Assembly (NCBI RefSeq): GCF_000745185.1
Contig: NZ_JQNJ01000001.1
Location: forward strand, 4,012,501 to 4,076,500
Source: Muricauda sp. MAR_2010_75
Lineage (GTDB): Bacteria; Bacteroidota; Bacteroidia; Flavobacteriales; Flavobacteriaceae
Direction: 5' to 3'
DNA: 64,000 nt
Position numbers and translations under genes: made by a program. Numbering within the stretch: position 1 is the first letter of the stretch; every line of letters starts with the position of its first letter. Shown here piece by piece: positions 912 through 11,191 of this stretch. Under the pieces are notes generated by a model. That model saw only the letters and a list, made by a program, of their open reading frames with translations. It was not told the DNA's origin and ran no database searches.

Positions 912-972
912 AAACCCCTAGTTTTTTTAAGGGAAAACTGCAATGAGTTTTTTTCGTGCGTTAGTAACTTGC
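912..972 (+). promoter_or_regulatory. Candidate activator-dependent promoter of the LytTR gene (shared motif, copy A)
   Basis: AAACCCC at 912-918, AAGG at 929-932, then exactly 32 bases to TAACTTGC at 965-972, which resembles the Bacteroidetes -7 box TAnnTTTG. No TTTG -33 box is seen 19-21 bases upstream of it. TTTTAAGG also occurs at 872-879 and 902-909, so the region holds three copies of that half-motif. The same layout occurs at 5221-5280 and, on the minus strand, at 11132-11191. The binding protein is unknown. Confidence 0.6.
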
Positions 973-988
973 AATCAGTAAATTGCAT

Positions 989-1723
989 ATGGATTACACC
1001 TACGCCATAATCGATTCCAGTGCAGCCTCCAAGCTGCAGTTGCAGCTCTACCTGCAAGAGTATGACGATTTCACCTGCGCAGGTGTGGCCACCAACGCAT
1101 CAGAAGGGTTGAACACCATTTTAAAATTTACGCCGGATTTGGTACTGATCAATCTTGGCGAAGATGGAATGGATTATTTTCAGATGGTTACGGAGTTGAA
1201 CCAGTATATGCCCTCGCTTCCTATTATTATAGGGTATTCCAAAACCAAAAAATATGCCTACAATGCCATAAAAAGTGGCTTTTTCGACTATTGGATACTT
1301 CCGCACAATGAGTTTGATGTACGCAAGACCATTATGCGGCTTCGCAAACTGCACCCAAAACATCACATGCCCTCTACCATTTGCTTAAAATCGTACAATG
1401 ATTATCGGTATTTGGACACCAAGGATATTCTCTATCTAAAATCCGATAACAACTCTACGGATTTCTATATGCGAGATGGCAATGTGGTCAGTGCCTTTAA
1501 AACCTTAAAGTCTTTTGAGGACAAACTCCCTGAGGGCTTTATAAGGGTACACCAAAGTTATATATTGAATAGCAGGTATGTATCCCGTATTAATTATGGC
1601 AAATCTATTTGCACACTCAACCATGACCGGGAAGAAGAACTTCCTTTTTCCAAAACCTATAAGGATAAGATAGACGCCTTAAAGGAAATGCTCTCCAAAA
1701 CCGCGGTAAAGGCCGTTAATTAG
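989..1723 (+). CDS. LytTR-family DNA-binding response regulator with degenerate receiver domain
   Basis: A 244-residue protein with an N-terminal receiver-like domain (about 1-120) and a C-terminal LytTR DNA-binding domain (about 135-240; note CLKSYNDYRYLDTKDILYL and FIRVHQSYILN). The phosphoacceptor position in PDLVLIN is Asn55 rather than Asp, the conserved Lys of the LxKP motif is Leu104, and only one acidic residue is seen in the first pocket (IIDSS). Phosphorylation-independent behaviour is therefore likely. The ATG at 989 is preferred over the in-frame TTG at 983. The upstream promoter carries shared motif A; two tiny lipoprotein genes follow on the same strand. A cytoplasmic transcription regulator; its targets are unknown. 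Confidence 0.85.
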   Translation: MDYTYAIIDSSAASKLQLQLYLQEYDDFTCAGVATNASEGLNTILKFTPDLVLINLGEDGMDYFQMVTELNQYMPSLPIIIGYSKTKKYAYNAIKSGFFDYWILPHNEFDVRKTIMRLRKLHPKHHMPSTICLKSYNDYRYLDTKDILYLKSDNNSTDFYMRDGNVVSAFKTLKSFEDKLPEGFIRVHQSYILNSRYVSRINYGKSICTLNHDREEELPFSKTYKDKIDALKEMLSKTAVKAVN

Positions 1724-1755
1724 CAAAATTCTAACGCTTTTCTGTAAAATTCTAG
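1724..1755 (+). promoter_or_regulatory. 11-bp direct repeat with 21-bp period ahead of the tiny lipoprotein genes
   Basis: AAAATTCTAAC at 1724-1734 and AAAATTCTAGC at 1745-1755 differ at one base and lie 21 bases apart. LytTR proteins typically bind two about 9-bp direct repeats separated by about 12 bp, so the geometry fits the product of the gene just upstream. The match to the published LytTR consensus is only partial. A -7-like TATCTTAG lies at 1816-1823. Confidence 0.35.
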
Positions 1756-1861
1756 CAGAATTGTGTCATCTGCTAAAACATTTGTTGCAACACACCCTGC
1801 TACTAGGTGGCTAAATATCTTAGCCGTACAAACCTATTTATTAAACCATAAACCTAATATT

Positions 1862-2026
1862 ATGAGAAGAGCACTAAGTATTTTCGCACTTGCACTACTA
1901 GCCGTTGGAATGTATTCTTGCGAACCTGAAACTGATGTACAAGACACCGAAGCACTTATGAAAACTATAGACCAAGAATCTACGGATGGGAAGTCTTCTA
2001 ACGGTGATACCGGACGTGACGGATAG
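1862..2026 (+). CDS. Tiny lipoprotein, 54 residues
   Basis: The start is the ATG at 1862; an in-frame TTG further upstream would extend the ORF but would bury the signal peptide. Residues 1-20 form a lipoprotein signal ending in the lipobox GMYSC (Cys20). The mature part is only about 35 residues, acidic (EPETDVQDTEALMKTIDQES), and ends in a Ser/Gly/Asp-rich tail. No domain is recognised. It is followed after 21 bases by a second tiny lipoprotein gene and preceded by the LytTR gene, so a role in that signalling island is inferred from position only. Confidence 0.7.
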   Translation: MRRALSIFALALLAVGMYSCEPETDVQDTEALMKTIDQESTDGKSSNGDTGRDG

Positions 2027-2047
2027 TATCCAAAGGACAACATAAAA

Positions 2048-2245
2048 ATGAAAAAGGTTGCTACACTTGTCTTGGTCCTTATTTTAACCAGTATGCTTTC
2101 GTGCAAAAAAGAGGAAACTGGAATAAATGCACAATCTTTGACCTATAAGGAAGGTGAAATGCACAAAAAGCTTTACTTGATGGAGAAGATTCGTAGCAAA
2201 ACCCATAAATTAAAGTCCTTTGCGGATGAAGGCAGAGAACTCTAA
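2048..2245 (+). CDS. Tiny lipoprotein, 65 residues
   Basis: The ATG at 2048 gives a 65-residue product with a lipoprotein signal whose lipobox is SMLSC (Cys19), followed by a Lys-rich, probably helical mature part (KKLYLMEKIRSKTHKLKSF). The opposite charge of the two neighbours, acidic first and basic second, is notable and might mean they interact (inference). It lies 21 bases after the first tiny lipoprotein gene and is closed by a strong terminator, so the two probably form one transcript. No family is recognised. Confidence 0.7.
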   Translation: MKKVATLVLVLILTSMLSCKKEETGINAQSLTYKEGEMHKKLYLMEKIRSKTHKLKSFADEGREL

Positions 2246-2268
2246 TTCAAAATAATTAAAATACGATC

Positions 2269-2301
2269 AGCCCCATTTCAGTCAAGATTTGGGGCTTTTT
2301 T
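2269..2301 (+). terminator. Rho-independent terminator after the tiny lipoprotein genes
   Basis: The stem AGCCCCA (2269-2275) pairs with TGGGGCT (2290-2296) and is followed by a T run to 2301. Confidence 0.85.
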
Positions 2302-2344
2302 GTTACCTTGTATTAGGAACAACTCCAATATAACCTACTAAATA

Positions 2345-4441
2345 TTGAAAAAGAGTATTCTTTTCACCCTTATTATCATTTTTTTGGGCTGTACCAAACA
2401 GTCCCAACAGCAATCGGTTGCCGTTGACCCAGAGGCTGATTTAATTGATATATGGATTTCTGCTGCGCGAGACAGTGTTCATCTTTCTATGGATGAGCGG
2501 AAGAATCTACTGCAACAGGCAAAAGATAAGGCCTTTGCCCTCGCCAATGATAGTCTTGGTATTGAAAAACTTTCCAAAATTTCCCTAGCCTACAAAAAAA
2601 TATCAGATTCCTTGGAATTCAGAAAAACCAATCAACAGGTCATGGAGTTGGCCGAAAAATCTAAAATGCATCGTGTTTTGGGAAACTCGCATTGGGATAT
2701 GGCTTATCTATTTAGTTCTTATGGAGTTTTAGATAGTGCCTTTTACCATTATCAAAAAGCACTAAAAAGTTTTGAGCAATTACCATCCGATTCAATTTCA
2801 AATTCGAATAAAGGTAGGATGCACTATCTTATGGGTCGCATTCAAGATTCTTACAAGGATTTTCTAGGTGCAGAAATCAGCATAACTTCAGCTTTACGAA
2901 TTTTTGAAGATCTAGAGGATAGTGAAAGAGTATATAATTGCTACAACATGTTGGGGATTATTGCTAGCGGTATGGACGATAGCGATAAAGCTTTGGAGTT
3001 TTTTAAAAAAGCAGGAGCCTATATTGATGAAGTTGATGAATCAGAGCAAGCGAAGTTCATACAGCAAAATCAATACAATATTGCCCATGAGCTCTCACAA
3101 AAAGGAGATTATTTGGCAGCAGAAGAGGTCTTTGACAAATTGCTCAAAAACAAAACCATAAAGGAAAAAAATCTAGAATTATATTCATTGGCCCTAACAA
3201 GTCAGGCCTATTCTATTTATAAAGGTGAACAAAATGTTGAAAAGGCCAAAACATTGATTAACCAATCCATTAAATTGAATGATAGCATTAACCACAATGT
3301 AGACCAACCCCGAGCAAAACAATACTACGCAGAACTTTTGGCCGAGCAGGGCGATACCGCAACAGCACTCCAGTACGCCAAAGAATCGCGCGCCTTGGCA
3401 CAAGAAACCTATAACAACGAACGGTTGACCGAGGTACTTCGGTTGCTCACCAAGTTGGATGGCGAGAATGCCCTGGCCTATTCCAATGCCTACTATGACC
3501 TTAGCGAGACCATACAGGAAGAAGAGCGCACCAAGCGGGACAAGTTTGCGCGCATCCGTTTGGAAACCGATCAGGTGATTCACGAAAATGAGGTGCTCTC
3601 CCGCGAAAAACAAATCTGGATGGGCACCATTTTGGGGCTTATCCTATTTGGTATGGCCATCATTATCATCCTGTTCCAATATATCAACAACAATAGGCTC
3701 AAATACAGACAAAAACAACAGGAAAGCAACCATGAGATCTATAACCTTATGCTGTCCCAACAAGGCAAATTTGAAGAGGGCAAGCAGTTGGAACAAAAAC
3801 GAATTTCGGAAGAATTGCATGATGGGATACTTGGAGAAATGCTTGGTATTAGACTTATATTAAGTGGTTTAAATGAAAGGGACGATGATGCCTCAGTAGA
3901 GCAACGTGCCGATCTGATCGAACGTCTGCGTGAAGTAGAGGAAGAAATACGGACCATTTCACATGAGCTGAACCATGCCTCTTATGAAAAATTTCATAAC
4001 TTTATTGTATCGCTGGAAGATTTGATCAGAGGTATTGAAAAGTCTTCCGGAATTGCATGTTCTTTTACGTATGACAATAAAGTGAATTGGGACAATCTCT
4101 TGGGAGACATCAAGATAAATGCCTATAGAATTGTTCAGGAATCACTCAAAAATTGTGTGAAGCATGCTCAATGTGAGCATATTGATATTGCGTTTGGAAT
4201 GAATGGCGAAAAGTTGAAGCTGACCATTTCGGACGATGGAATTGGTTTTGACACCAATAAAGGAAAACGGGGAATCGGTATTCGCAATATCATTTCAAGG
4301 GTAAAAAAAGTAAAAGGGACTTTTGCCATTGACAGTGTTAAGGGCAAGGGCACCATAATTACCGTTACTATACCCAGCACATATATTGGGTTGGAGAACA
4401 CGCCAAATGATGTAACACAAAAACAAATTTTGAACGCCTAA
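2345..4441 (+). CDS. TPR-containing sensor histidine kinase (NarL/LuxR-system type)
   Basis: The TTG at 2345 is chosen because the signal sequence starts there (KKSILF..., Cys16 in a lipobox-like FLGC). The 698-residue protein has TPR-like helical repeats over about 30-400 (presumably periplasmic), a coiled linker, one membrane segment at about 425-447, then a HisKA_3 dimerisation domain with His492 in ELHDG and a HATPase_c domain with Asn603 (N box) and the SDDGIGFD motif near 630. Such kinases autophosphorylate and pass phosphate to LuxR-type regulators; the gene 24 bases downstream encodes one. The stimulus is unknown. The leader would make the N-terminus lipidated, common in Bacteroidetes TPR kinases. 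Confidence 0.92.
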   Translation: MKKSILFTLIIIFLGCTKQSQQQSVAVDPEADLIDIWISAARDSVHLSMDERKNLLQQAKDKAFALANDSLGIEKLSKISLAYKKISDSLEFRKTNQQVMELAEKSKMHRVLGNSHWDMAYLFSSYGVLDSAFYHYQKALKSFEQLPSDSISNSNKGRMHYLMGRIQDSYKDFLGAEISITSALRIFEDLEDSERVYNCYNMLGIIASGMDDSDKALEFFKKAGAYIDEVDESEQAKFIQQNQYNIAHELSQKGDYLAAEEVFDKLLKNKTIKEKNLELYSLALTSQAYSIYKGEQNVEKAKTLINQSIKLNDSINHNVDQPRAKQYYAELLAEQGDTATALQYAKESRALAQETYNNERLTEVLRLLTKLDGENALAYSNAYYDLSETIQEEERTKRDKFARIRLETDQVIHENEVLSREKQIWMGTILGLILFGMAIIIILFQYINNNRLKYRQKQQESNHEIYNLMLSQQGKFEEGKQLEQKRISEELHDGILGEMLGIRLILSGLNERDDDASVEQRADLIERLREVEEEIRTISHELNHASYEKFHNFIVSLEDLIRGIEKSSGIACSFTYDNKVNWDNLLGDIKINAYRIVQESLKNCVKHAQCEHIDIAFGMNGEKLKLTISDDGIGFDTNKGKRGIGIRNIISRVKKVKGTFAIDSVKGKGTIITVTIPSTYIGLENTPNDVTQKQILNA

Positions 4442-4465
4442 ATCTTATAAATACACAACCAAATC

Positions 4466-5134
4466 ATGAGTACGCTTAGAATATTGGCCATAGATGACCA
4501 TGAAATGACAATGCTTGGATACAAGTTTATTCTTGAACGCATTGCTTTTGATGGCCACACCATCATTGTAGATACCGCTAATTCGTATGAATCTGGCAAA
4601 AAGCTTATTGAAAATTCAGCCAATTCCTTTAAATATGACATCCTGTTCTTGGATGTTCAACTTTTTGCCCCTAATGAAGATCAGCCTTATACAGGGGAAG
4701 ATCTGGGGATTTTGGCACGCAAAATAGTGCCCGAGAGCAAAATTGTCTATATGTCGTCCTTTAGCGACAATTATCGCATCAACAGTATTCTCAAAACAGT
4801 AGATCCTGATGGTTATTTGGTAAAAACGGACATCGACCCAAAAACGTTGGAAGATGCGGTAAAGACCATTGTGCAAAATCCACCCTACTATTCCTCAAAA
4901 GCCCTCGCCGCCATCCGTAAGAAAATGTCCAGCGACATTGATCTTGATGAAAAGGACCGGCAGATATTGTACCACCTCTCCAAAGGCACCAAAAACAAGG
5001 ATTTGGAAAAATTCATTAGACTTTCCCCTTCTTCCATAGAAAACAGAAAGCGCCATTTGAAAACCCTTTTTGGTACAGAAAACGAGAACGATCTTGCCCT
5101 TATCCTTGCGGCAAAAAATAGAGGGTTTATCTAA
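4466..5134 (+). CDS. LuxR/NarL-type response regulator
   Basis: A 222-residue protein with an intact receiver: Asp10/Asp11, phosphoacceptor Asp63 (DILFLDV), Ser97/98 and Lys120. The C-terminal about 155-222 is a LuxR-like helix-turn-helix (LDEKDRQILYHLSKGTKNKDLEKFI...SSIENRKRHLKTLF). It is the likely partner of the kinase 24 bases upstream, in one operon. Unlike the neighbouring LytTR protein, all phosphorylation residues are present. Its target promoters are unknown; the shared AAACCCC/AAGG promoter just downstream is a candidate (inference). Confidence 0.92.
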   Translation: MSTLRILAIDDHEMTMLGYKFILERIAFDGHTIIVDTANSYESGKKLIENSANSFKYDILFLDVQLFAPNEDQPYTGEDLGILARKIVPESKIVYMSSFSDNYRINSILKTVDPDGYLVKTDIDPKTLEDAVKTIVQNPPYYSSKALAAIRKKMSSDIDLDEKDRQILYHLSKGTKNKDLEKFIRLSPSSIENRKRHLKTLFGTENENDLALILAAKNRGFI

Positions 5135-5160
5135 GATTTTCCATTTTTTTTCAATTGCAG

Positions 5161-5174
5161 TACGGCTTGCCGTA
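5161..5174. other. Short perfect palindrome downstream of the response regulator
   Basis: TACGGC TT GCCGTA is a perfect inverted repeat with almost no loop. No T run follows, so it is not a convincing intrinsic terminator; it could be a weak terminator or a protein-binding site. Confidence 0.35.
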
Positions 5175-5220
5175 ATTTATATCACTTGTTTTTGAGGTAA
5201 AATCCCTACAAACAACGGGA

Positions 5221-5280
5221 AAACCCCAAAATTTTTAAGGATTTCCTCCAATCCAAAAAAAAAGAATCGTTCTAACTTTA
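5221..5280 (+). promoter_or_regulatory. Candidate activator-dependent promoter of gene 5297 (shared motif, copy B)
   Basis: AAACCCC at 5221-5227, AAGG at 5237-5240, 32 bases, then TAACTTTA at 5273-5280. Around the core this copy is nearly identical to copy C at 11132-11191: both read AAACCCC, an A/T-rich spacer of nine bases, AAGGATTTCC. The start codon is 17 bases beyond the -7-like box. Confidence 0.6.
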
Positions 5281-5296
5281 GTGGTACGAATTTATA

Positions 5297-5968
5297 ATGC
5301 TGAAAACAATGTCATCCCAAAGAAAAAATAACCCTAATTTCAACTTTAGCGGCGCAAAGATTTTTGAGGCCGTCAACGGAGTTGATGAGTTTCTCAAAAC
5401 CTTGGAAAGAGAGTTTTTTGCAGAAGCTAAAATACAGTGCAATTTTAACAGTGCGCATAATAAAGCTGATTTGATTCTTGATCTAAATTTCAATTTTGGC
5501 CTTACTGAAATTCTACGTCACTTTAATGGGGGAAATTGGGGCAATTTTGCCTATCCTCAGGAAAGTCAGGCGCACATGTCATCCTGTTTCACCAAGGCAT
5601 TGGAAAAATTAAATGCCCAGAACAGTCATTCATTGGATATCATTGAGGCCTCATTTCATTACAAGGATACCTCCATTGTTATTTCAAGAACAAGTGAGTT
5701 TAGCATTCCCAAACAAATAGGGGCCATCCTATCCAAAATAAGCCAACACTTTGTGTATTTTACCAAAGGCCTTACCGAAATGCCCTATGAAGTCTTTGTT
5801 CCCGTATATGAAGGAAAAGCACAAAATGTGTTTGAACCCAAGAAAAATCAAAGCAGCTATTTTGATTTTTGGGGTCTTTATTTTGAAGATAACATACACC
5901 ACCGGGTTATGATCTACTCCCTGCAGAACAAGGAACTCTGCCACGAAGATCTCTTTCTTCTAGAATAA
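5297..5968 (+). CDS. Protein of unknown function, 223 residues
   Basis: The ATG at 5297 (a second ATG lies four codons on) opens a soluble-looking protein with no signal peptide, membrane segment or recognised domain. It contains phenylalanine- and asparagine-rich stretches (LDLNFNFGLTEILRHFNGG) and a central ISRTSEFSIPKQIGAILSKI segment. It follows the two-component operon by about 160 bases and has its own promoter with shared motif B, so it may be co-regulated with the LytTR gene and the DUF6973-like lipoprotein. Codon use looks like that of its neighbours. Function cannot be assigned. Confidence 0.75.
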   Translation: MLKTMSSQRKNNPNFNFSGAKIFEAVNGVDEFLKTLEREFFAEAKIQCNFNSAHNKADLILDLNFNFGLTEILRHFNGGNWGNFAYPQESQAHMSSCFTKALEKLNAQNSHSLDIIEASFHYKDTSIVISRTSEFSIPKQIGAILSKISQHFVYFTKGLTEMPYEVFVPVYEGKAQNVFEPKKNQSSYFDFWGLYFEDNIHHRVMIYSLQNKELCHEDLFLLE

Positions 5969-6015
5969 AAGAATAAAGGGGCAATCCAAAAATCTTACAA
6001 CCAACAACCCAACCC

Positions 6016-7290
6016 TTACGAATTAAACAAAGGTCTAGATTTCATCAAATCTTTGACCTTTTGTTTTATTTGAGCGATTTGTGCTTCATTTTCGGGGTCT
6101 GTAATTACCCCGTCTATAAATTCCACAATGGTTTCCATATCCGCTTCCTTCAATCCCCTAGTGGTTATGGCAGGGGTTCCAAATCGTATTCCCGAAGTAA
6201 TGAATGGGGACTGATCATCAAAAGGCACCATGTTCTTATTGGCGGTAATGGCCGCTTTTTCAAGTGCTTTCTCCGCATCTTTACCTGTTATACCCTTATT
6301 TCTTAGGTCAATAAGCATCATATGGTTATCAGTTCCACCTGAAATTACTTTGTAATCTCTCGCCATAAACGCTTTGGCCATGGCCTCTGCATTTTTCTTC
6401 ACCTGAATCATATAATGCAAGTACTCATCGGAAAGCGCTTCACCAAATGCAATGGCCTTGGCCGCAATAATATGCTCCAATGGCCCCCCTTGGTTCCCTG
6501 GGAAAACAGCTAGATCCAACAAGGCCGACATTTTTCTCAGATTTCCATTTTTAAGCTTTATGCCAAACGGGTTGTCAAAATTTTCACCCATCAAAATAAG
6601 ACCTCCTCTTGGCCCACGTAGTGTTTTGTGGGTGGTTGTGGTCACAATGTGGCAATGAGGAATAGGGTCGTTCAAAATACCCTTGGCGATCAAGCCAGCG
6701 GGATGCGAAATATCCGCCACCAAAATGGCACCTACACTATCAGCTATTTCCCTAAAGCGTTTAAAATCCATATCACGGGAATAGGCGGAAGCACCCGCAA
6801 TAATCAATTTGGGTTTTTCCTTATCGGCTATCTCTTGGATTTTATCATAGTTCAGGGTCCCAGTCTCCTCATCTACCCCATAAAATACAGGTCGATACAA
6901 TTTTCCCGAAAAATTCACAGGTGAACCATGGGTCAAGTGTCCCCCGTGGGACAAATCGAACCCTAAAATGGTGTCACCGGGATTCAAACAGGCATGATAA
7001 ACAGACGCATTGGCCTGGGAACCTGAATGGGGTTGCACATTGGCATACACAGCACCGAACAATTCCTTGGCTCGGTCTATGGCAAGTTGCTCAATTTCGT
7101 CCACCACTTCACATCCACCATAATAGCGTTTTCCCGGATAACCCTCGGCATATTTATTGGTCAATACAGAACCCGCAGCCTCCATGACCTGTGGACTGGT
7201 AAAATTTTCCGAAGCTATCAGTTCAATACCTTCAATTTGTCTATCCTTTTCTTGCGCTATTAGTTCAAAAATCTTATGGTCTCTTTGCAT
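6016..7290 (-). CDS. glyA: Serine hydroxymethyltransferase
   Basis: The 424-residue product is a full-length PLP enzyme interconverting serine plus tetrahydrofolate with glycine plus 5,10-methylene-tetrahydrofolate in the cytoplasm. Motifs include [31 protein letters not shown] and the PLP-lysine motif [14 protein letters not shown] (Lys222). The ATG at 7290 is preferred over a longer in-frame start at 7332 because the family begins at this point and AAAGGCAAG sits just ahead as a ribosome-binding site. It is transcribed alone, convergent with gene 5297. Confidence 0.98.
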
Positions 7291-7540
7291 CTTGCCTTTA
7301 ATTAAAAGAAAGGCCAAAATTACGAATTGCATATTGATTATCTGCTATAAAAAAGTCGCTCCAAAAGCATTTTATCAAACAGCAATTAACAATTTCTCGT
7401 TTCTCATTAAACCATTGAAAACGAGTTTATTTTAGGTATTTCACCGATAATATACTACCGTTCAACCTTTTTCGTTATAAAAATGTTGGTTTTTGGCACA
7501 GCAATTGAAAAACCACCCATAACCAATAAATTAAAAAACC

Positions 7541-8725
7541 ATGAAAAAAATTCTACTTATCACCGTTTTGGTTTTACTTGCCGCCTGCGGAGGGGTCAAA
7601 AAAACCCAAGAAGCACTCAACAGCGGAAACTACCAAACCGCTATGAACAAGGCTATTAAGAACTTGGCCGATAATAAGACCAAGAAGGGCAACCAAGAAT
7701 ACATTACCCTTTTGGAAGAGGCTTTTGCCAAGAACGCGGAAAGAGAGCACCAAGAAATCGCTTTTTTGCAGAATGATGGCAACCCGGCCAATTTGGAGAC
7801 CATTTACAACAAGTATTTAGGGTTGAAGAACATCCAGCAACGCATCAGGCCCTTATTGCCCCTTACCATTTATGAGGAAGGCAGGGATGCGCGATTCAAA
7901 TTTGTGAATTACGACAACCAAATTTTGAATACCAAGGATGACTTGTCCGAACATTTGTATGAAAATGCCCTAGGTCTTTTGGCTTCTGCCAAGTACAAAG
8001 CCGATTACAGAGCGGCGTATGATGATTTGAAGTATTTGCAAGACATCAATCCTGGCTATAAGGAAACCGTGGCCAAAATGGATGAGGCCTATAACAAAGG
8101 TTTGGAATTTGTGCGGGTTGAAATTGCCAATCAGACTGAGCAGATTATCCCAGAGCGATTGGAAGAGGAATTGTTGGATTTCAATGCATTTGGTATTGAT
8201 AATTTTTGGTTGCAATACCATACCAACCCCTTGTCCAATATAAAATATGATTATGCCATGAACTTGGATTTTATGGAAATCAATATTTCCCCGGAGCGTG
8301 TCAATGAAACCCAAATCATCAAGGAAAAACAAATTAAAGATGGCTGGGAATATGTTTTGGATGCCAATGGAAATGTCGCAAAGGACAGTTTGGGCAATGA
8401 CATCAAAGTAGACAAAATGCGTACCGTTACCTGTAGGTTCTTCCAATTTACCCAGAGCAAGGTTGCTCAAATTGGTGCTAAAGTTAGGTTTACGGATTTA
8501 AGAAGCGGGCAGGAAATCAATGCCTACCCCCTATCCAGTCAATTTGTATTTGAACATATATTTGCCAACTTTCAAGGCGACAAAAGAGCATTGGAAGATG
8601 ACCTTTTAATTTATTTAAATGCCCGAGAGGTTCCTTTCCCATCCAACGAACAAATGGTCTACGATGCCGGAGAAGACCTCAAAGCAAGGTTAAAGGGCAT
8701 CGTCTCACAATATCAGTTTAATTAA
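7541..8725 (+). CDS. Conserved lipoprotein of unknown function, 394 residues
   Basis: The ATG at 7541 starts a lipoprotein signal with lipobox LLAAC (Cys16), followed by a Gly-Gly-Val sequence. The first part (about 25-200) looks like helical TPR-type repeats (ALNSGNYQTAMNKAIKNLA), the second like a beta-rich domain. A structural or assembly role at the outer membrane is plausible but only inferred. The gene is monocistronic with a strong terminator immediately after the stop. No enzymatic motif is visible. Confidence 0.75.
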   Translation: MKKILLITVLVLLAACGGVKKTQEALNSGNYQTAMNKAIKNLADNKTKKGNQEYITLLEEAFAKNAEREHQEIAFLQNDGNPANLETIYNKYLGLKNIQQRIRPLLPLTIYEEGRDARFKFVNYDNQILNTKDDLSEHLYENALGLLASAKYKADYRAAYDDLKYLQDINPGYKETVAKMDEAYNKGLEFVRVEIANQTEQIIPERLEEELLDFNAFGIDNFWLQYHTNPLSNIKYDYAMNLDFMEINISPERVNETQIIKEKQIKDGWEYVLDANGNVAKDSLGNDIKVDKMRTVTCRFFQFTQSKVAQIGAKVRFTDLRSGQEINAYPLSSQFVFEHIFANFQGDKRALEDDLLIYLNAREVPFPSNEQMVYDAGEDLKARLKGIVSQYQFN

Positions 8726-8732
8726 ATGAAAG

Positions 8733-8757
8733 TCCCCGGCGGTTGCCGGGGATTTTT
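8733..8757 (+). terminator. Rho-independent terminator after the 7541 lipoprotein gene
   Basis: TCCCCGGC (8733-8740) pairs with GCCGGGGA (8745-8752) around a GGTT loop, followed by five T. Confidence 0.9.
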
Positions 8758-8805
8758 ATGAAATTTATTGTCTTCTCCATTACAACATTCTTTCAAGAAA
8801 ATGTA

Positions 8806-9120
8806 TTATAGTTTATCTTCCCATTTTCGTGTTTTAGAGCTATAGACCAATTGCTTGTCAAAACCTATGTTAAAATAGATGCGGTAATCCGTATCACTAA
8901 TTTTATCATAATACGGTCCTTCCTCCATTTCTACATTTGACTGGTCTATATCCTTTATTGTTTCCGGGAGCGAATCATTTTTTTTCTTGTATGTTTCAAC
9001 TTTGAGAATGAGTGCCTCGCCTCTGCTTTTATAAGCATTTCTTTCGGATAACTTAAAAACAAAGGTGCTCCCAAACAGTAATAAAAGAGCTAAAACCGAA
9101 AACAATATTACTTTTTTCAT
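8806..9120 (-). CDS. Small membrane-anchored protein, candidate accessory or immunity protein
   Basis: The 104-residue product begins with one hydrophobic segment (about 4-22) and continues into a polar domain with KKKNDSLPETIKDI and an acidic middle (VEMEEGPYYD), then YRIYFNIGFDKQLVYSS. The membrane segment has no lipobox. The layout recalls short pilin-like or N-anchored periplasmic proteins; no family is recognised. It is the third gene on the minus strand after the large DUF6973-like lipoprotein, 89 bases downstream of gene 9210-9554. An immunity role is only a positional guess. Confidence 0.65.
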   Translation of the reverse strand: MKKVILFSVLALLLLFGSTFVFKLSERNAYKSRGEALILKVETYKKKNDSLPETIKDIDQSNVEMEEGPYYDKISDTDYRIYFNIGFDKQLVYSSKTRKWEDKL

Positions 9121-9209
9121 TTTTATGGGCTATGGAAATAGATATTAATGGTTTAAGAATAATTCGGGCAGCACCTATGTGACCTTTATGTATTTATAAA
9201 CCACATTAT

Positions 9210-9554
9210 TTAAAGACTATATTCAATTTCCAATTTTCCTTCGCTTGCCCGGTAGGGATCAAAGGTCCAGATGATATTTTCTGTTCCATAATAATCTCCA
9301 TTCATTAACGTATCTATTTTACCAATTAGGTTTTTGTCATAATACCCTTCTCTCTTGATTTTTATAGTGTCATTGACATAACCTTTTATTCTAATAAAGT
9401 AACCCACATAGCTTTTATTTTTATACGGGACAAGTGTATCCACTCTTTTTTGGGAGAAATCTGTAACAATGAAATTTCTGTGATCCCCGCAATTTTTACA
9501 ATCACAGGAAAGGAAAAAGATGGATAAAATAAATATAATTAACGCCTTTTTCAT
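9210..9554 (-). CDS. Small lipoprotein immediately downstream of the DUF6973-like protein
   Basis: The ATG at 9554 gives 114 residues with lipobox FFLSC (Cys17) and two further Cys close behind (CDCKNC). A TTG at 9563 would add three residues and overlap the upstream stop codon; either start implies translational coupling with the gene ending at 9560. The mature part is beta-rich with YVGYFIRIKGYVNDTIKI and ends TFDPYRASEGKLEIEYSL. No family is recognised. Tight coupling with a large lipoprotein carrying a toxin-like domain makes an immunity or chaperone role plausible (inference). Confidence 0.7.
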   Translation of the reverse strand: MKKALIIFILSIFFLSCDCKNCGDHRNFIVTDFSQKRVDTLVPYKNKSYVGYFIRIKGYVNDTIKIKREGYYDKNLIGKIDTLMNGDYYGTENIIWTFDPYRASEGKLEIEYSL

Positions 9555-9559
9555 TTTAT

Positions 9560-11086
9560 TCAATTTGTTGGTATTAACTTAGATTGATTAGTTGCCGGAC
9601 CACTAGCACCGCCACCTTGCAAGTTTGATAAATATCTTAATTCTCCTTTTGCCATAGCATCCAATATGCTTGCGGGCAATGATTGGTAGCCATCTGCTAA
9701 CCAGTCTTTTTTTGTCCGTCCAACCTGATTATTAAACAAATCCATTTGCTTTTCTTTGTAATGGTTTGAATAATCAAATGGTTTATCTTCATGGGCGGTT
9801 GCCAAATCTTCTGCCAATGAGGGGCCCAGCAGAATTGCATTCAGCGCATTGAAGTATGCATGTCTAAAAGCATCTCCCTTACCGTTGTATAATGAATTTG
9901 GGTATAGATCTTGTGCCTTCCATGTAGCTTTTTGAGCATTAAATAAGTATGCCATTTGTTCAAATATACTTAGAGAATTAAAAATAATTATTTCACTAGA
10001 AGACATTTGACCTCTATAATCTTGCCCAAAATTCACATTATTACCATTCATTATACCTACTAGTATGAATCTTGCATATGCTTTTGCTGTAGCAGACTTA
10101 TTCTTTGCCAAAAATGAAGTGAGCCCTTGAGTTAGTTGACCATTTCTTAAAAGAAAGTTTATTTCATTGGTAGAAAGCGTCAATTTCGTCCTAAGCCCAT
10201 TAACAAGCAACTTTGTACGGCTGGCCATATTGGCGGCCACGCCTCCTGGAGCACTTGGGCATTTGGTGCAACCTCTATCGGTGGCCTTGTTGTTCGCCTT
10301 TGTAGACATCTCATAGATAACCTGACACTCCCCTGGATGTTGGCAAACACTGCCCGACCCATAGCTAAAGGTCCTGCCATCAGGCGTTACGTGGTATACG
10401 GTGATAGAAATGGAATAGGAAGCCACCGTAGGTGAATCAAAACCACTGCTAAATTGTGCCCCGCCCATGCTGGTACCTGTTCCACCACCACCGGAACCGT
10501 TCGTAACATTGGTCCTAATGCACGGAATGGGATCGCCATATTGGTCATGTTCCACGCAAATATCCTTGGAAAGGGAGCCGTCACTGAAAATTTGGTCAAA
10601 AGGATACATGCTCATCGTTCCTACAAAGGCCGTGGGATCAAAACCACTCTCCTCGAACGCTTCATAGTGTTCGGGGTCGCATACATAGTGAAAAACCATA
10701 GGTTCCTGCGGCTGTCCGTCCTCCGATTCGCCCACTACTAAATTGTAAAACTCATTCTCCGCACTGTCCGGCAGAGTAAAGTGAAACGAGTAATTGGACT
10801 GCCCCAAGGAATCGTTGACCCTAATTACTTCCTCAGCAATAGTGGGCCCGTCGTTTTTTCCAGTGGCCGAGGCTTTAAAAATATCCTTGCCCGCCCGGGA
10901 ACTCAGGAAATCGGTAATCTTTGGGATACCCTCCATGTCCACAGAGTTTAGGGTGTAAGGACCTGCCTTAGCATTGACGTCTTGGTCGGTTTCCAGGACC
11001 AACGGTTCTTCCTTCTCACAGGAAAAATGAATTGACAAAACAAAAAATAAGGTTGCAGCAAATTTTGGGAAAGTAGACTTTCTCAT
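9560..11086 (-). CDS. Large lipoprotein with C-terminal DUF6973-like domain
   Basis: The 508-residue product has a lipoprotein signal with Cys23 (IHFSC), a long N-terminal region with no recognised fold, a Gly/Ser-rich stretch (about 200-215), a Cys-rich insert (CTKCPS), then a helical C-terminal domain. That domain contains NGKGDAFRHAYFNAL (about 398-413), a downstream AHE, and MDLFNNQVG, the pattern of DUF6973, a domain also seen at the ends of polymorphic-toxin-like proteins (from memory, not searched). Conserved His, Asp and Glu suggest a catalytic or metal site. Its promoter carries shared motif C. Two small exported proteins follow. Confidence 0.75.
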   Translation of the reverse strand: MRKSTFPKFAATLFFVLSIHFSCEKEEPLVLETDQDVNAKAGPYTLNSVDMEGIPKITDFLSSRAGKDIFKASATGKNDGPTIAEEVIRVNDSLGQSNYSFHFTLPDSAENEFYNLVVGESEDGQPQEPMVFHYVCDPEHYEAFEESGFDPTAFVGTMSMYPFDQIFSDGSLSKDICVEHDQYGDPIPCIRTNVTNGSGGGGTGTSMGGAQFSSGFDSPTVASYSISITVYHVTPDGRTFSYGSGSVCQHPGECQVIYEMSTKANNKATDRGCTKCPSAPGGVAANMASRTKLLVNGLRTKLTLSTNEINFLLRNGQLTQGLTSFLAKNKSATAKAYARFILVGIMNGNNVNFGQDYRGQMSSSEIIIFNSLSIFEQMAYLFNAQKATWKAQDLYPNSLYNGKGDAFRHAYFNALNAILLGPSLAEDLATAHEDKPFDYSNHYKEKQMDLFNNQVGRTKKDWLADGYQSLPASILDAMAKGELRYLSNLQGGGASGPATNQSKLIPTN

Positions 11087-11131
11087 GATAAGTAGGTTTT
11101 AGAAAATGTTAGATTGGGGAATGCTGCACCC

Positions 11132-11191
11132 GCAAGCTAAAAAATTCCACCTAAAGCCTACTGTGGGAAATCCTTAAAATTTCCGGGGTTT
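11132..11191 (-). promoter_or_regulatory. Candidate activator-dependent promoter of the DUF6973-like lipoprotein gene (shared motif, copy C)
   Basis: Read on the minus strand: AAACCCC (11191-11185), nine bases, AAGG (11175-11172), exactly 32 bases, then TAGCTTGC (11139-11132). Spacing equals that of copy B. Copy C also has CCTTAAAG upstream, so TTTAAGG is present as an inverted repeat around the CCCC block. The start codon is about 46 bases beyond the -7-like box. Confidence 0.6.

Follow-up and report, generated by a model that had tools for sequence, protein, structure and literature searches.

A palindromic promoter element before a two-component gene cluster and exchangeable cargo genes of Flavobacteriaceae: probable operator of a LuxR/NarL-type regulator

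We analyzed a window of 64,000 nucleotides from Muricauda sp. MAR_2010_75 (C1:4012501-4076500 of the 4.42-Mb single-contig genome) and describe a promoter element that precedes three of its genes, namely the gene of a LytTR regulator, a conserved gene that we call gene B, and the gene of a toxin-like DUF6973 lipoprotein. The element consists of a palindrome and a -7 box at a fixed spacing. It is symmetric and conserved across genera, it co-occurs with a gene cluster that encodes a two-component system, and it is found before differing cargo at common flanks. As judged from sequence comparisons, the palindrome is probably the operator of the LuxR/NarL-type response regulator of this cluster (4466-5134), and the cluster would then be a two-component system of flavobacteria to which a conflict regulon of a plug-in kind belongs.

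The promoter element and its conservation

The three copies lie at 912-972 (site A, plus strand), 5221-5280 (site B, plus strand), and 11191-11132 (site C, minus strand). In agreement with the sequence-only reading that had pointed them out, each copy contains AAACCCC and AAGG, followed after exactly 32 bases by the box TAACTT (A and B) or TAGCTT (C), and a -33 TTTG at the usual distance, reported as missing in A and B, was not seen by eye either. The description as AAACCCC-N9/10-AAGG is correct as a sequence, but the element is one palindrome in the register CC-N13-GG. The difference between 9 and 10 spacer bases arises because of one extra C (AACCC followed by CTAG in A, AAACC followed by CCAA in B).

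In the orthologous promoters, the element is a 23-bp palindrome (AAnCC-N13-GGnnn) with a TAnnTT(TG) -7 box 32 bases after the GG. Upstream of gene B relatives, the consensus is AAACC-N-TA-N7-TA-N-GGTTT, which is followed after 29 bases by TAnnTTTG, equivalent to 32 bases from the GG. The palindrome of Flagellimonas has a degenerate left half (AAnCC[A/C][T/C]AG), the right half TTAAGG, and an extra conserved element, CTGCAAT. The symmetry is higher in other genera. Among 52 distinct sites from genera other than Flagellimonas, 81% of the cells were symmetric, compared with 27-55% for slid frames, and 31 cells were altered on both sides of the palindrome, against a mean of 19 in shuffled data, a value that none of 500 shuffles equaled.

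For the core cluster, we compared the loci of the best 80 of 169 gene B relatives (the named loci), seeking CC-N13/14-GG without the -7 box and then scoring the box TAnnWT at offsets 22-43. This palindrome core was found in 68/70 promoters of LytTR genes (A promoters) and in 75/80 gene B promoters, and the comparison of orthologous promoters that had been suggested as a check thus bore out conservation across genera. In the gene B promoters, TAnnWT was at offset 32 in 71 of the 75 and at 31 in the other 4, and the next best offset was 38 with 9 occurrences. The box was at 32 in 65/68 A promoters if the GG is taken as the first two bases of the G run; with the second GG of GGG runs, the offset was 31 in 40 promoters and 32 in the other 28. 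The gene order LytTR gene, tiny lipoprotein gene(s), tetratricopeptide repeat (TPR) kinase gene, LuxR-type regulator gene, gene B, and glyA was near-universal in those named loci that were long enough; short loci miss parts, and in L163 no LytTR gene and no kinase gene was detected at E 1e-8. Within the family, gene B relatives occurred in 21/149 genomes (own genome counted). The sequences aligned gap-free at the palindrome in 17 of these 21 loci, among which the box was one base nearer in L055 and L067; L062 and L071-L073 are variable or were inspected by eye.

As to chance level, AAACCCC-N9/10-AAGG alone gave 23 matches in the genome and the reversed control 18, some of the matches being inside open reading frames (ORFs). 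The bare core is therefore near chance and not specific without the box, so that the proposed refutation by random occurrence applies to the core but not to the whole element. The exact family-wide pattern was present in 26/299 genomes versus 2 reversed-control matches, and 19 of the 26 precede gene B relatives.

Two models, both trained on the two core promoters alone, were used for further searches, R1 (orthologous A and B promoters plus sites A and B of the window) and R2 (non-Flagellimonas sites). On the own genome, R1 detected A with E 2.5e-15 and B with E 1.2e-14, scores that are no independent test because both sites are training members. Six matches had E <=1e-4, namely A, B, 3776171-, 3694179-, 548479-, and 2876636+ (genome position and strand). 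Weaker matches, several of them inside genes, included C and 802537+ (both E 0.106), of which 802537+ has the palindrome with the box at 32 and sits at a hotspot that is used in relatives. R1 matched in 60/60 genomes of the genus, with 2-8 matches per genome, and R2 in 28/28 gene B-carrying genomes of 27 genera; as many of these genomes are from training species or near to them, the counts show reach, not proof. In the family, R2 matched all 7 genomes with gene B (3 of which supplied training sites) and 2/34 genomes without gene B, the latter with single weak matches (E 2.6e-5 and 4.5e-5).

Genes behind the element

The shared promoter class that had been proposed exists and takes in all three genes, and the sites found elsewhere support a regulon that would be wider than these three, with exchangeable cargo at hotspots. 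We infer that it is a single regulon in the strict sense, with one activator. The box was at 32 in 25/25 R1 sites fetched from genus genomes (20 stretches with strong distal matches and 5 own sites) and in 18/18 sites of other genera (17 distal R2 matches from nine genomes plus a LytTR promoter of a tenth genome), in both cases with a box that belongs to the models and to the choice of the GG. A same-strand ORF was present within 600 bases of 16/17 distal R2 sites. A hemL-like flank and its neighbors were common to 8/20 enlarged loci, including the own 802537 locus, and other enlarged loci share an aldehyde-dehydrogenase-like gene or a small xre-like gene.

The cargo at these hotspots is mostly different between loci, although a few families recur in two loci. 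When 33 picked cargo proteins were analyzed with PADLOC, 8 proteins in 7 loci matched better than 1e-10 (PDC-S46, PDC-M30A, PDC-M30B/M41B, OLD/Gabija, phospholipase effector, RT_UG19, subtilase, and mad3). Pfam matches included AbiH, haem peroxidase, tyrosinase, patatin, and trypsin with endonuclease I, and many cargo proteins had no family match.

The lipoprotein encoded behind site C is, by its sequence, a modular, polymorphic-toxin-like protein. Relatives were found in 16/60 genus genomes (own counted), some of which match only the first 350 residues and some only the last 175. The relative in genome G341 is 76% identical over residues 1-356, within a longer reading frame that lacks the last part, and residues 333-508 recur at 66-74% in proteins of G327, G311, and G305, whose N-termini are different or only remotely alike. 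A kept N-terminal part with an exchanged C-terminal domain is what characterizes polymorphic toxins. Site C is backed by the G341 orthologue, which has the element upstream with the same spacing (R1 E 1.1e-10). Upstream of DUF6973 homologues, 21 regions were readable, with repeated ORFs and window C counted among them. The core test was passed by 8 of these, and the box, unused in their choice, is at 32 in 8/8. The suggested tie between a signaling island and a toxin-like lipoprotein is supported: the same element precedes the cluster genes and DUF6973 relatives. At the BrxC-Q7541 position, wherever a named locus contained both genes (70/70), no more than 195 bases separated them and a real site was lacking, and insertions are present in the window, L101, and L102; site C of the window evidently arrived with its insertion.

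The closest named relatives of the gene B protein, with up to 89% identity, are Muricauda, Allomuricauda, and Flagellimonas records. It had no match in Pfam, and its predicted model (mean predicted local distance difference test score, pLDDT, of 80) gave no convincing fold match in the PDB.

Some further features of the distal loci were observed. Own-genome site 3694179- (L303/L262) has only the gene of an 88-aa membrane-like protein downstream, which is small and unusual as a target. The sites of L271, L350, and L359 precede a common family of ~190-210-aa proteins (..LYGTxF..). A histidine-kinase-like gene follows in L271, L350, and L356, and a LuxR-type regulator gene as well in L271 and L350, which resembles a regulator-of-regulator cargo. 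In L361, a 69-aa ORF located ~2840 bases past the site has a Cys/Trp/Gly-rich C-terminal core (..CPCPDGGWSWLCC) and the look of a modified-peptide precursor. The 5' leaders of the cargo (L261, L270, L275, L279, and others), which lie between the -7 box and unrelated genes, are often 100-200 nt long and share CTCCAAGTTATTGACTTCCTACGACTTACTTCCCCC-like or GCAGCCCCTCCCC-like blocks; those tested had no match in Rfam.

The candidate activator and its rivals

The LuxR-type regulator has the receiver Asp and the C-terminal LuxR-type helix-turn-helix (HTH) of NarL/FixJ response regulators, and the palindrome has the two-fold symmetry of the operators of this class. The phospho-acceptor Asp is present in 81/81 LuxR-type regulator sequences, and the PDB relatives are VraR (8e-9, residues 3-201), ChrA, DevR, and RcsB (to residue 213). 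In Pfam, GerE was not matched at 0.01, and the receiver match (E 3e-4) was under the Pfam cut-off.

We also compared the recognition helix with the third base of the half-site, using 50 of 92 distinct rows (fewer where the helix was unread, SSIEN rows being thinned to every fifth). TTVEN occurred with C (8/8), VES/VEA with T (9/9), and IEK with G (1/1). In an earlier helix list that covered 100 loci, a few of the sites were picked wrongly (L105, L106, L122, L148, and L156). With 20 effective sequences, helix columns 188, 189, and 193 rank 4, 2, and 9 of 222 in excess mutual information with the site, and 7 of the top 10 columns are past residue 150, that is, in the HTH part. These comparisons point to the LuxR-type regulator, rather than the LytTR regulator, as the likely activator. 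In L095 and L098, a regulator with the helix VEKRKKQLK is encoded upstream of CGG-armed versions of the palindrome, and L076 has a similar site with a downstream ORF; these loci perhaps represent a sister system with another half-site.

In the mechanism that we propose, a dimer of the LuxR/NarL-type regulator would bind the palindrome just 5' of the -35 region, with its center near -52 if the box is at -12 to -5, and would activate promoters without a -33 element; this position on such promoters would explain the fixed 32-base spacing. The LytTR gene and gene B would be the core targets. The LytTR protein, whose receiver is unable to accept phosphate in the usual manner, would be controlled by its amount, bind 21-bp direct repeats, and drive expression of the tiny lipoprotein. 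The TPR sensor kinase, probably on the outer side, would receive the signal, which is perhaps a tiny lipoprotein peptide. Accessory targets behind the same promoter, namely defence-like genes as well as genes of toxin-like lipoproteins and their partners, would be swapped at hotspots. That all this constitutes a family-wide, possibly lipopeptide-sensing regulon of the Flavobacteriaceae, in which one trigger serves acquired toxin-immunity and phage-defence cargo and LytTR gives feedback on the signal peptide, is a tentative and rather doubtful extension.

Several observations speak against the proposed operator and its regulon. Site C, which is outside the R1 training set, is weak (E 0.106, ninth of 27 listed own-genome matches), and the E-values of the models are rough. 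Two of five symmetry measures were not above the shuffles (both-side-changed pairs as high in 319/500, pair types in 472/500), and the shuffles take the relatedness of the sites as it stands. The common IEN helix pairs with A (12), T (10), C (8), and G (2). As there were only ~4 helix changes on the tree, with 1 pair per trait in the independent-pairs test, which is below the reach of significance, the helix-site association is supportive and not significant. At hotspots, the defence-like gene is often the second or third past the site, so that it may be transcribed from a promoter of its own. Only the mentioned 8 of 21 DUF6973 upstream regions pass the core test, window C itself misses the T-count threshold, and the further motifs of DUF6973 homologues were seen only by eye, are few, and lie farther upstream, with several regions having no motif.

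The nearest rival concerns the LytTR regulator, whose DNA-binding domain is clearly recognizable (PF04397, E 1.4e-16). At the phospho-acceptor position its receiver has N (68/71) or H (3/71), not the Asp of a classic phospho-regulated receiver. LytTR sites are described in PMC4847170 as 9-11-nt direct or inverse repeats 11-13 nt apart, and direct repeats about 21 bp apart are given for the LytTR regulatory systems HdrRM and BrsRM in PMC6193735. Repeats of the former dimensions precede the gene of tiny lipoprotein 1: between the LytTR and tiny lipoprotein genes, AATTCTAnCAGA direct repeats have the best period of 21 in 51/71 sequences, with scattered values in shuffles, and two consensus copies, present in 22/71 sequences, are spaced by 21 in 22/22.

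As the LytTR gene (989-1723) is inside the cluster and has one motif copy in front of it, its product might itself bind the motif at its own and other promoters in a simple autoregulation, and the first half-site is accompanied, at a distance of ~22 bp, by a third conserved element (CTGCAAT or CTATA); this distance is a LytTR-like period. However, the classic LytTR arrangement is elsewhere, in the form of AATTCTnnCAGA direct repeats with period 21 before the neighboring small lipoprotein gene, and the motif consists of inverted repeats around a 7-base core, unlike the LytTR repeats of PMC4847170. The helix association, which compared columns of the LuxR-type regulator only, also favors the latter, and we regard binding by the LytTR regulator as unlikely.

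Slightly less probable still is that the promoter class is read by a special sigma factor, or by a regulator encoded elsewhere, with the two-component cluster being just another target. Binding by the cluster regulator is itself a deduction, and the fixed architecture would be as expected for a sigma class; however, the -7 boxes are near the ordinary TAnnTTTG box given in PMC9723704, and the element is two-fold symmetric and all but absent in the 34 family genomes without gene B. The resemblance of AAAACC..GGTTTTT to a weak hairpin plus T tail and the position of site B after the regulator gene might suggest an intergenic RNA hairpin such as a bidirectional terminator. This is highly improbable, as Flagellimonas A sites mostly end in GGGAAAA, which is unable to pair with AAACC, and yet are highly conserved, the spacing to the -7 box is fixed before unrelated genes, and Rfam gave no match at gathering scores in six loci.

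The remaining components of the cluster are listed with the sites in the table. Tiny lipoprotein 1 has an acidic D-x-R tail at its C-terminus. In the Zobellia loci L173, L174, and L175, the tiny lipoprotein contains many tandem 14-residue repeats ending in acidic-Arg motifs, a resemblance to multi-copy peptide precursors or pro-pheromones that is suggestive only. The C-terminus of tiny lipoprotein 2 is often [DN]D[DE]REL-like (window and Flagellimonas loci), and a terminator-like AGCCCC..GGGGCTTTTTT was seen by eye in the window 3' of its gene, at about 2262-2300. The HisKA_3 match of the kinase is just below the Pfam cut-off. A loop from the regulator via LytTR, peptide, and kinase back to the regulator is possible, its peptide-kinase step being a guess.

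Table 1. Positions of promoter sites and genes in the window
Feature	Position	Strand	Basis
Site A, palindromic operator (AAnCC-N13-GGnnn) 5' of the LytTR gene (proposed)	913..935	+	sequence, orthologues, model R1
Site A, -7 box TAACTT, 32 bases past GG	965..970	+	sequence, orthologues
LytTR-domain regulator, receiver without phospho-acceptor Asp	989..1723	+	Pfam, alignment
LytTR-type site 5' of the small lipoprotein gene, AATTCTnnC in direct repeat every 21 bp	1725..1759	+	period analysis
Tiny lipoprotein 1, candidate signal peptide precursor	1862..2026	+	sequence; tandem repeats in Zobellia relatives
Tiny lipoprotein 2, ends ..EGREL	2048..2245	+	sequence, named loci
Sensor kinase: lipoprotein-like N-terminus, TPR repeats, membrane helix (by eye), HisKA_3, HATPase	2345..4441	+	Pfam, sequence
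LuxR/NarL-type response regulator, proposed activator	4466..5134	+	domain searches, PDB matches, helix-site comparison
Site B, palindromic operator 5' of gene B (proposed)	5221..5243	+	sequence, orthologues, model R1
Site B, -7 box TAACTT, 32 bases past GG	5273..5278	+	sequence, orthologues
Gene B, conserved ~220-aa protein, proposed core target	5297..5968	+	orthologues, searches
Small ORF behind C, candidate immunity/partner gene	8806..9120	-	no Pfam match
Small ORF behind C, candidate immunity/partner gene	9210..9563	-	no Pfam match
DUF6973 lipoprotein, polymorphic-toxin-like with modular N- and C-terminal parts; accessory insertion	9560..11086	-	Pfam, relatives
Site C, proposed operator (11191-11169) and -7 box TAGCTT (11139-11134)	11132..11191	-	sequence, R1 E 0.106, orthologue

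Relation to known systems and significance

The regulons of NarL/FixJ regulators (VraR, RcsB, DevR) correspond to the system proposed here in the combination of receiver and HTH and in the palindromic operator upstream of -35, whereas the exchangeable hotspot cargo, the flavobacterial promoter with 32-base spacing, and the LytTR second tier are different. In Gram-positive bacteria, peptide-pheromone bacteriocin regulons are controlled by BlpR, ComE, or PlnC with LytTR direct repeats. They likewise have a conserved promoter before swappable antagonism genes, a LytTR protein, and a small exported peptide gene; in contrast to them, a LuxR-type regulator on a palindrome is proposed for the cargo here, the peptides are lipoproteins with a putative role, and the organisms are Bacteroidota. 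Defence islands and integration hotspots share the principle of same flanks with different, partly defence-like cargo, but here a single class of promoter, linked to a single conserved two-component system, precedes the cargo. HdrRM and BrsRM, as presented in PMC6193735, are similar in the LytTR regulator, the direct repeats ~21 bp apart, and a possible feedback topology, whereas the LytTR gene here would be under a two-component operator and a membrane inhibitor partner was not seen, none having been sought.

In the literature searched, we found no published description of the operator, the cluster, or the cargo link. The parts are of known kinds, and what is new is their combination in Bacteroidota, where a conserved two-component system is joined to conflict cargo that is exchangeable and stands behind a standard promoter. 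To our knowledge, the joint switching-on of defence and toxin genes that are scattered over hotspots is largely an open matter, above all in Bacteroidota. The operator sequence and its spacing provide a searchable handle, by which cargo genes, those of unknown proteins among them, are predicted to be candidates for antagonism or defence, and the analysis singles out one regulator and one kinase together with a candidate peptide. If the proposal is true, exchanged cassettes would be connected immediately to a community or stress signal.

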